A DNA stretch of 44,150 nucleotides, from assembly GCA_947505105.1 (NCBI GenBank), contig CANNKG010000021.1:1-44150 (forward strand), given 5' to 3'. The number at the start of each line of letters is the position of its first letter. Position 1 is the first letter of the stretch. The position numbers and the translations under genes were made by a program. Positions 22,360 through 25,537 of the stretch are shown one piece after another. Below the pieces are notes generated by a model, which saw only the letters and a program-made list of their open reading frames with translations, did no database searches and had not been told where the DNA came from. The DNA comes from Methylococcaceae bacterium. GTDB taxonomy: Bacteria > Pseudomonadota > Gammaproteobacteria > Methylococcales > Methylomonadaceae.

Positions 22360-22994
22360 GTTTTCGCCTTATTATTCTGCGCTTGCATACGGATTAGACA
22401 TCGCCTGGCTTCAATACCAGGAACTTGCAACGGAATAACGACGTATTGGCCAATTATTTCACTTAACTCTTGATGACTCGGATCGCCTTTCATCGCTAGA
22501 ATTTCACCATGATCATCTAACAAATGCCCCGTCGAATTTTGTATCTCGGACACACTTGCAAAAGCACGTGAAATCACGGTACTAAAATGCTGTTCAGGTT
22601 GATACTGATCGATTCTTGTATGCAATACAGAGACATTTTTGAGCTTTAATTCAAGTAATGCCTGCTGAACAAAGCGCGTCTTCTTTGCATTACTATCAAT
22701 CAAGACATATTCATTTTCGGGTGCATAAATCGCAAGAGGAATTCCTGGCAATCCTGCTCCTGTTCCAATATCGGCAATTTTACCATGTTTAAGATGAGGT
22801 AAAACGGCTAGACTATCCAAGATATGTAAAGTCATTATATCAAGCGGATTCTCAATCGCCGTCAAATTATAAGTTTTATTCCACTTTTGAATTAACGCGA
22901 CAAACTTGAGCAATAAATCCAGTTTGTCATGGCTTTCTGACAAACCTAAAACCGAAAGCCCCGATATTAATATTTCTTGTTCTTTTGATGACAT
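22347..22994 (-). CDS. rsmG: 16S rRNA (guanine527-N7)-methyltransferase
   Basis: 215 aa. SAM-binding motif IADIGTGAGLPGIPLAI, preceded by KWNKTYNLTAIENPLDIMTLHILDSLAVLPHL, which is the GidB/RsmG signature; VISRAFASVSEI and GEILAMKG follow in the C-terminal half. Overlaps mnmG by one base and parA by 13 bp, so mnmG-rsmG-parA-parB is one translationally coupled run. Confidence 0.96.
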   Translation of the reverse strand: MSSKEQEILISGLSVLGLSESHDKLDLLLKFVALIQKWNKTYNLTAIENPLDIMTLHILDSLAVLPHLKHGKIADIGTGAGLPGIPLAIYAPENEYVLIDSNAKKTRFVQQALLELKLKNVSVLHTRIDQYQPEQHFSTVISRAFASVSEIQNSTGHLLDDHGEILAMKGDPSHQELSEIIGQYVVIPLQVPGIEARRCLIRMQAQNNKAKTWEK

Positions 22995-24871
22995 TATGCC
23001 GATTTCTTTTTTAAATGCACCAAGAGCAAAGAAACTGCGGCTGGTGTGACACCAGGGATACGCGATGCTTGGCCCAAGGTTTCCGGTCGTTGCTTTTGGA
23101 GTTTCTCACTGACTTCATTAGACAAGCCAGTCACGTCAGGATAGTTGAAATCCCCAGGTAAGCGTAAATGATCATAGCGTTTGGTTCGATTGATTTCAGT
23201 CTGCTGACGTTCAATATAACCTGCATATTTTGTCTGAATCGCAACTTGTTCCGCAGCCTGCACACAAATGTCTTCATTTGTATCAAGAAATCGTAATAAT
23301 TGCCTGATATCAATTTCGGGCCGTCTTAATAGCTCCAGAAGATTGGTTTCTCGTGACAACGAACAGCCCCAATATTCTTGTACCTGTTGAGCCTCGACCG
23401 TATCAACATGCAGCCACTTCTTACTTAAATCAATTTGTAATTTTTCAATCGCCTCACGTTTTTGAGCAAAGGTCTGCCAACGTTGATCATCAACAAGTTT
23501 CAGCATTCGTCCTTGTTCGGTTAAACGTATATCGGCATTATCCTCCCTAAGTAATAAACGGTATTCTGCGCGACTCGTGAACATTCGATAAGGCTCTCGA
23601 GTTCCCTGAGTCACCAGATCGTCAATCATGACGCCGATATAGGCTTCATCGCGAGCAGGACACCAACTTTCCAATCCATTAACTAAGCGAGCCGCATTTA
23701 ATCCGGCGATCAAGCCCTGAGCAGCCGCTTCCTCATAGCCTGTGGTACCATTGATTTGTCCAGCAAAAAACAAGCCAGGGACATATTTACTTTCTAGCGA
23801 AAACTTTAAATCTCTGGGATCGAAAAAGTCATATTCAATCGCATAACCCGGCCGAACTATTTCGGCATTTTCAAAGCCCTGCATTGAGCGAACTAATTCA
23901 TATTGCACATCAAAAGGTAAACTCGTTGATATACCATTCGGATAAATTTCGTGGGTATTCAAACCTTCCGGCTCGACAAAAATTTGATGAGAGTCCCGAT
24001 CAGCAAAGCGCACGACTTTATCTTCAATCGAAGGACAATAGCGTGGGCCGATTCCTTCAATAACTCCCGAATACAACGGTGATCGATCTAACCCAGACCG
24101 TATAATATCGTGAGTTCGAACATTGGTACGCGTAATGTAGCAAGGAATTTGCCGGGGATGTTGTTCCGGTCGTCCCATAAATGAAAATACCGGAACTGGT
24201 TCATCACCATGCTGAACATCGAGCTTGCTATAATCTATGGTTAAACCATTTATACGCGGAGGAGTTCCGGTTTTCAACCGTTCGACTCGCAAGGGTAGTT
24301 CTCGCAATCGTTCGGCAAGTGCTACAGATGCCGGATCTCCTGCACGCCCTCCTTGATAGTTTTCCAAACCAATGTGAATTTTCCCGGCTAAAAAAGTACC
24401 GGTAGTTAAGACAACGGCCCGAGCCATAAAATTTAGGCCCATTTGGGTTTTTACACCAACGACACTGTCGTGCTCAACAATTAAATCTGAGACAGTTTGT
24501 TGAAACAGGGATAAATTAGGCTGATTTTCTAAAGCGGTTCTAATGGCTTGCTTATATAATGATCGATCTGCTTGAGCTCGAGTTGCTCGAACCGCGGGTC
24601 CTTTACTCGCATTTAAAATACGAAAATGAATACCTGCTTGATCAATGGCATGCGCCATTATTCCACCTAAGGCATCAATCTCTTTAACTAGATGACCTTT
24701 TCCTATTCCGCCAATTGCCGGATTACAACTCATTTGGCCCAAAGTCTCTATATTTTGGGTCAGCAATAAAGTGCGCGCACCACTCCGCGCAGATGCTAAT
24801 GCTGCCTCTGTGCCTGCATGACCACCGCCAATCACAATTACATCAAAATCTTTTTTAAATTTCACAAGCAA
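22994..24871 (-). CDS. mnmG: MnmG (GidA), tRNA U34 carboxymethylaminomethyl synthesis
   Basis: 625 aa FAD protein that, with MnmE, modifies U34 of certain tRNAs. N-terminal FAD motif [21 protein letters not shown], then [24 protein letters not shown], the GidA signature [11 protein letters not shown], and [26 protein letters not shown]. The C-terminal helical domain ends in [22 protein letters not shown]. Its partner mnmE is also in the window at 41502. Divergent from the arfA-like gene with 89 bp between the starts. Confidence 0.97.
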
Positions 24872-24960
24872 ACTATATTAGAATAAACAGGTATTTTAAT
24901 TGGTTATAAGGTTTAAATACAACATTATCATTTTTTATCTAACCCTCACAAGGCGTAAAT

Positions 24961-25227
24961 ATGAGCAGACACACGAAAGAAAAGCAAACCCATTCAATAG
25001 ACTATGCAGATAATAATCCAGTAGCAAAATATGCATTTAAATTTAATAAAACTCAGTTATTTAAAGATCGTAAAAACACTTATTCGCGTCAAACAAAACA
25101 CAAACAAAAGGAGTCTTTTGAAATAGCATTGTGGATCAATAATATTATTTCAAAAGACTCCATTATTTTTGCGACCTGTTTGCTAACGCCAACGTTCAAG
25201 TTTGTTCCGATGATGTTGCGCATTTAA
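24961..25227 (+). CDS. arfA: ArfA-like alternative ribosome-rescue factor with an internal hairpin
   Basis: 88-codon frame behind an AAGGCG ribosome-binding site. NPVAKYAFKFNKTQLFKDRK then NTYSRQTKHKQKES (residues 19-52) follow the ArfA pattern: a DP/NP-F start, a basic stretch, and SY-RKGKH like the E. coli protein. A hydrophobic tail (IIFATCLLTP) resembles the degradation-prone tail of full-length ArfA. From codon 50 the gene contains a perfect 16-bp hairpin and a T-tract, so transcripts should end or be cut inside the frame and give a shorter, active product only when tmRNA fails to tag it, as known for E. coli arfA. ArfA recruits RF2 to stalled ribosomes. The 3' end overlaps the convergent DksA/TraR gene by 32 bp. 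Confidence 0.8.
   Translation: MSRHTKEKQTHSIDYADNNPVAKYAFKFNKTQLFKDRKNTYSRQTKHKQKESFEIALWINNIISKDSIIFATCLLTPTFKFVPMMLRI
25110..25170. terminator. Perfect hairpin with T-tracts on both sides, inside arfA
   Basis: Stem GGAGTCTTTTGAAATA (25110-25125) and TATTTCAAAAGACTCC (25146-25161), 16 bp without mismatch, 20-base loop. On the plus strand a T-rich run follows (25163-25170). On the minus strand the stem is followed by TTTTGTTTGT, so the same hairpin can terminate the minus-strand zinc-finger gene that ends at 25196. The stem is also long enough to be an RNase III substrate. Confidence 0.85.
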
Positions 25228-25537
25228 TACACATACTGGCAAACGGTACGGCGGCTAATCGTTCCACTCCAATTGTTTCTCCACACACCTTACAGATTCC
25301 ATACTCCCCCCGGTCCATCCGAACAATCGCTTGCTTGATTGTTTCAATTTTGTCTCGAGTACGATTGCCGATAGCATCCATAACCTCATTATTTTCACTT
25401 TCTATTGCTTGTTCTTCAAAATCTTGAGAAATGGGGCCATCAGAATGTTTCAAATCGCTGGTGATTTTTTCCAGTCGGTCATCCAGATCTTCCAGCATAT
25501 GTAGTAACTGATTTCTCACCTGTTCATATTCTTGCAT
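25196..25537 (-). CDS. DksA/TraR-family C4 zinc-finger protein
   Basis: 113 aa. An N-terminal coiled coil (about 1-70) with the acidic DFEEQAIESENNEVMDAIG segment characteristic of this family is followed by a C4 zinc finger (CKVCGETIGVERLAAVPFASMCIKC). It is shorter than DksA itself (about 150 aa) and closer to the TraR/YbiI-like group. Such proteins may enter the RNA polymerase secondary channel; whether this one does is unknown. The hairpin at 25110-25161 is its likely terminator. Upstream are nfeD and an SPFH gene on the same strand. Confidence 0.88.
   Translation of the reverse strand: MQEYEQVRNQLLHMLEDLDDRLEKITSDLKHSDGPISQDFEEQAIESENNEVMDAIGNRTRDKIETIKQAIVRMDRGEYGICKVCGETIGVERLAAVPFASMCIKCATSSEQT

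Follow-up and report, generated by a model that had tools for sequence, protein, structure and literature searches.

The 88-codon reading frame considered here, which lies in a window of 44,150 nucleotides of DNA from a Methylococcaceae bacterium (contig CANNKG010000021.1; Table 1), quite probably encodes an uncharacterised alternative ribosome-rescue factor of the ArfA/BrfA kind, one that would be translated from non-stop mRNA and repressed by trans-translation. Judged by its sequence, the gene carries the elements of that circuit, and its layout is like those described for arfA of E. coli (PMC3989581) and for brfA (PMC6881298). For E. coli arfA it is described that RNase III cuts the stem, that transcription may end early, that the product is tagged by tmRNA and that its hydrophobic tail makes it unstable (PMC3989581), and BrfA (YqkK) of Bacillus is presented as a small RF2-dependent rescue factor which obtains its non-stop mRNA by way of an internal terminator (PMC6881298).

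Table 1. Features of the DUF7230 gene and its neighbours (positions in the window).
Feature	Position	Strand	Basis
mnmG (gidA), divergent, upstream of the reading frame	22994..24871	-	PF01134 4e-173; synteny
AAGG, putative Shine-Dalgarno-like sequence, ATG 7 nt further on	24950..24953	+	read from sequence
DUF7230 reading frame, candidate alternative ribosome-rescue factor, 88 codons	24961..25227	+	ORF translation
DUF7230 core, PF23876 match	25012..25125	+	profile match
Hairpin 5' arm GGAGTCTTTTGAAATA, starting at the last base of codon 50	25110..25125	+	sequence, fold
Hairpin 3' arm, exact reverse complement of the 5' arm, ahead of the stop codon	25146..25161	+	sequence, fold
Hydrophobic tail, residues 68-88	25162..25224	+	GRAVY +1.52
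T-rich tract TTATTTTT past the stem, 7/8 T	25163..25170	+	sequence
DksA/TraR-type zinc-finger gene, convergent, 3' end sharing 32 nt with the end of the reading frame	25196..25537	-	PF01258 6.3e-13, PF21173 1.7e-10

A preliminary description of this DNA had pointed to a short protein with the segment NTYSRQTKHK, which is indeed found at residues 39-48 of the 88-residue product, and had assigned this protein to the ArfA family, an assignment that has to be given up. The PF03889 (ArfA) profile, which picked up E. coli in the control search, matched neither the product nor anything in its genome or across 61 Methylococcales genomes, so that the protein is rejected as a PF03889 member; a similar mode of action is not thereby refuted. 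It falls instead in PF23876 (DUF7230; E 5.1e-13, 49.3 bits against a curated cut-off of 27), a profile that is matched by all 30 members of our DUF7230 alignment at E <= 0.1. Profiles of PHROGs 1359, 6310 and 5724 are matched as well, and no function is assigned either to these or to PF23876. NCBIfam gave no meaningful match to the protein, searches of PDB sequences nothing relevant, Pfam no match to an RF1-like catalytic domain, the feature of ArfB, and a plasmid search no match, and the literature searched mentioned neither DUF7230 nor PF23876 and held no paper on ArfA in Methylococcales or on alternative ribosome rescue in methanotrophs. A rescue role would provide a testable function for DUF7230 and for several PHROG families to which none is assigned.

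What the preliminary description had said of the nucleotide sequence is borne out, namely that a perfect 16-bp hairpin begins at codon 50, that a T-tract follows it ahead of the stop and that a hydrophobic tail is encoded past the hairpin; the tail stands at GRAVY +1.52 as against -1.75 for residues 1-50. The two arms form the sole perfect 16-bp inverted repeat in the window (loop 3-43 nt), and in the predicted fold the stem extends to 22 pairs by way of one G-U pair and one mismatch. None of 200 shuffles folds as well as the hairpin (z -4.15) and none of 100 as well as the 90-nt stretch (z -7.44), and among 100 synonymous recodings none equals the real fold of -28.4 kcal/mol, the best reaching -24.8 and the mean being -12.5. 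A consensus terminator scan with a loop limit of 8 called no terminator. The stem together with the T-tract could nonetheless serve as a terminator, and the stem alone as a substrate of RNase III.

DUF7230 is found, with the window's own genome counted each time, in 3 of 398 genomes of a phylum-wide draw, in 10 of 274 genomes of the class, in 26 of 61 genomes of the order Methylococcales, including 15/15 of the family, and in 37 of the 61 genomes of a closer draw (32/37 of the family). Two matches of the phylum search (L198, L199) were sought by motif and not located, and one genome of the same family (G485) has two DUF7230 matches (C31:65762-65914 and C88:83008-83160). The named relatives belong to Methylomonas, Methylovulum, Methylomicrobium, Crenothrix and Methylobacter, and since these include cultured methanotrophs the proposal is open to testing. 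Judged by tblastn, the gene adjoins mnmG in 24 of 39 loci and in 17 of 19 further ones, some of the loci not extending far enough to include it.

The hairpin recurs in these relatives. All 25 distinct DUF7230 genes from the 26 Methylococcales genomes form a stem, 17-30 pairs long, where the core ends, and the stop codon either follows this stem or falls within it. In the 90 nt from the core end, 37 of 39 distinct genes reach a stem length of 12 pairs or more (the exceptions being L005 and L065), and 36 of the 39 fold better than all of 100 dinucleotide shuffles. When stem length, shuffles and position were combined in one uniform test, and five genes were added to the 39, 37 of 44 bacterial genes passed, the stop lying past the hairpin in 26 and within it in 11. 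Six loci with proteins identical to others had been dropped, loci from already sampled genomes were counted once, and L009 (match not located in frame) and L075 (protein only) stand outside the 44. The seven failures count against our reading; two of them (L033 and L037), whose stems reach 20 and 22 pairs, miss on the shuffles alone, and the other five (L005, L006, L010, L065, L071) have no comparable stem within the gene. Folds judged by eye showed the hairpin in all of 19 further loci as well; 17 of these have new proteins and two repeat the proteins of L066 and L059, and two of the 19 come from the window's own genus (L189, L197). These gene counts are not phylogenetically independent, and the window and anchor of the hairpin test were set after the first loci had been seen.

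Not only the presence of a stem but its pairing appears to be kept. In 22 of 27 genes with the stop past the hairpin the real sequence folds better than each of 100 synonymous recodings, while in the remaining five at least one recoding does as well, which again counts against our reading. Among 51 genes, three or four types of Watson-Crick pair occur in 18 of 20 stem columns and two types in columns 1 and 2, with 1-15 of the 51 genes unpaired in a given column; the pair types were taken from the predicted fold of each gene itself, which biases them toward pairing. When the window is compared with its genus mates, several stem columns differ on both sides. From these comparisons we can conclude that the gene maintains its hairpin in Methylococcales and that the stem positions change in a compensatory manner. 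The preliminary description had also proposed the non-stop/tmRNA circuit itself, and this part of it gains from the comparison, since the hairpin persists, its stem changing in a compensatory way, in nearly all of the Methylococcales orthologues that were compared, even as the ArfA family assignment falls away. Of 16 arfA genes of PF03889 put through the same test, 12 have a stem that counts 12 or more pairs and folds better than every shuffle, with the stop past or within it, and four are (L012, L013, L044, L045) without such a stem. One of these four, L013 (G051:C72:963-1046), has a predicted stem of 10 pairs and then eight T before the stop, and possibly is a version with an intrinsic terminator.

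The mechanism we propose would begin with an mRNA cut short at the internal hairpin, by RNase III acting on the long stem, by termination at the stem and T-tract, or by both, and a message so truncated would be left without a stop codon. In most DUF7230 genes the 12 nt past the predicted stem are not a T-run, and in some the T-run is drawn into the stem, so that cleavage by RNase III is at least as likely as termination; the window has a T-rich tract in addition to a long stem. As long as trans-translation is active, tmRNA would tag the nascent protein and so lead to its destruction. Were trans-translation overloaded, a basic protein truncated at its C-terminus would be released with the DUF7230 core intact, its predicted length of roughly 52-70 residues following from the position of the hairpin. 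This product would free ribosomes stalled at the 3' ends of mRNAs in a release-factor-dependent way, probably by recruiting RF2. Residues 68-88 would be translated only when a transcript escapes truncation, and the full-length protein made by such read-through would, bearing the hydrophobic tail, presumably be unstable.

The hairpin can also be looked upon as a bidirectional terminator that is shared with the convergent DksA-like gene and merely crossed by the reading frame, DUF7230 having an ordinary function. The two genes do converge and overlap, and there is a T-rich stretch past the stem on the minus strand as well, but a DksA-like gene lies downstream by tblastn in only 8 of 39 loci (the window included) and in 4 of the further 19, and the hairpin keeps to the same codons where the longest downstream frame, which is here a frame and not an annotated gene, is a different one, whichever strand it lies on. 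Both sets of loci thus include orthologues that keep the hairpin without a convergent neighbour, which speaks against a shared terminator. We consider this explanation most improbable because the convergent neighbour is not conserved. It is likewise unlikely, though less so, that the protein is made from non-stop mRNA without being a rescue factor, for example as a small stress protein that binds ribosomes or RNA and takes a shortage of tmRNA as its signal. In favour of this, the core is common in phages, where some copies are joined to long viral proteins or to a 3'-5' exoribonuclease-like domain. However, the two small proteins encoded by non-stop messages in the literature consulted, ArfA and BrfA, are rescue factors (PMC3989581, PMC6881298), so that the circuit itself points to rescue, and the basic segment Y-x-R-K-x-K-H is furthermore like that of ArfA.

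This likeness raises the question whether DUF7230 is after all a divergent true ArfA, the two families sharing an ancestor and the KGKGS segment having been lost in one of them, which we hold to be possible but would not favour; such a relationship overlaps with the rescue factor we propose and would alter its filing and not its mechanism. Like the ArfA proteins of beta- and gammaproteobacteria, the DUF7230 candidate is small and basic with the Y-x-R-K-x-K-H segment at the end of the core, and the layout has a long hairpin just past this segment, before or across the stop, and a hydrophobic tail after it, the role of a backup to tmRNA being presumably shared too. Unlike ArfA, it has no PF03889 match, an N-terminal half with a conserved pattern of its own (N-P-V-A-K-x-A-x-x-F-N-K) and no KGKGS, which is absent from the window protein and from the DUF7230 consensus, KGKG being invariant in 16 of 16 aligned ArfA sequences. 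A comparison of the two profiles with hhalign gave a score of 18.94, above those of all 300 column-shuffled ArfA profiles, the best of which scored 18.92, but its alignment is confined to 14-15 columns around Y-x-R-K-x-K-H and has a probability of 27%. Furthermore, PF03889 at E 0.1 matches none of the 30 DUF7230 members, none of 274 genomes matches both families (only 10 and 3 matched either), and convergence, which is favoured for BrfA by the authors of the BrfA work, is equally possible (PMC6881298). In E. coli ArfA the hydrophobic residue F25 touches RF2 (PMC6299226). F34 of the window protein stands before K-D as a phenylalanine stands before R-Q in several ArfA rows, but whether it corresponds to F25 is doubtful, the two being differently spaced and this part lying outside the profile alignment. 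On sequence grounds, then, homology of DUF7230 and ArfA is not established, the short Y-x-R-K-x-K-H motif being all they have in common; that DUF7230 works like ArfA is better supported than that it is related to ArfA.

Other small rescue factors can be compared by their published descriptions. BrfA resembles the candidate in having an internal element before the stop, and differs from it in being found mainly in the genus Bacillus and in having N-terminal helices that are said to be without counterpart in ArfA (PMC6881298). ArfT of Francisella, with 40 residues, is likewise a small basic alternative rescue factor, but its gene reportedly lacks both a terminator and an RNase III site ahead of the stop, and it works with RF1 or RF2 (PMC6299226). 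The protein gp30 of pelagiphage HTVC027P is the product of a published rescue-factor gene annotated in a phage, and belongs, as given there, to PF03889 and not to DUF7230 (PMC12753301).

The window's genome contains a full-length tmRNA (214 bits). The model NF006718, which we take to be that of ArfB, has no match above cut-off there, and its two weak matches, in frames of 351 and 363 residues, are such as would be expected of RF1 and RF2. In the order it is matched above cut-off in 29 of 61 genomes, and these 61 divide into 18 with DUF7230 only, 21 with NF006718 only, 8 with both and 14 with neither (Fisher p 0.038, not corrected for phylogeny and not relied on); the 14 genomes with neither and the 8 with both count against our reading. 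A rescue factor of the DUF7230 type would fill a gap in the ribosome rescue of methanotrophs, the window's genome having tmRNA, no ArfA match and no ArfB match above cut-off. This would fit the suggestion, made in the BrfA work, that rescue systems still to be discovered may exist in many bacteria (PMC6881298).

DUF7230 also extends to viruses. By tblastn, 175 of 50,697 phage records gave a match (E up to 1; best 2e-3), the Pfam profile confirmed all seven phage proteins tested with it, and the Methylococcales alignment found matches in 65 viral contigs. The viral proteins have N-P-V-A-K-x-A-x-x-F-N-K in common and often Y-x-R-K-x-K-H, many of them ending a few residues past the latter. After removal of 21 of 74 viral loci as duplicates, 53 distinct genes were left, of which only four (L107, L108, L111, L112) passed the uniform hairpin test as against 37 of the 44 bacterial genes, the two groups being compared without correction for phylogeny; the gene of PA5oct (L110) has a hairpin and a T-run ahead of its stop and yet failed. 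This difference indicates that the hairpin is not a by-product of encoding the core, and it makes the non-stop circuit directly comparable with copies of the same core that are not gated. Conversely, the viral relatives, fusions to long proteins among them, show that the core also serves where the circuit is absent, possibly to a different end, which counts against our reading. We would tentatively suggest, without quite regarding it as probable, that DUF7230 is a separate class of alternative rescue factor spread over chromosomes and unrelated tailed phages, the methanotroph genes being gated by the hairpin until tmRNA fails and the phages mostly using a normal stop, so that their rescue would be independent of the tmRNA state of the host.

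The cores from phages (L105-L113) and viral contigs (L114-L178) occur in several groups of tailed phages, including Pakpunavirus, PA5oct, Demerecviridae of Vibrio and Aeromonas, and Xanthomonas phage XacN1, and the PHROGs that best match the phage cores (1359, 6310, 2701, 4586, 5724, 15229) have no function assigned. In Vibrio phage AG74 (L109:792-1673) the core is N-terminal to a 3'-5' exoribonuclease-like domain (PF16473), a fusion that could link rescue with the decay of broken mRNA. In five viral contigs (L126, L129, L135, L137, L161) the core is found inside long basic proteins, of which about 370-420 residues could be read up to the end of the locus, most of them with ECWD...NCVP segments.
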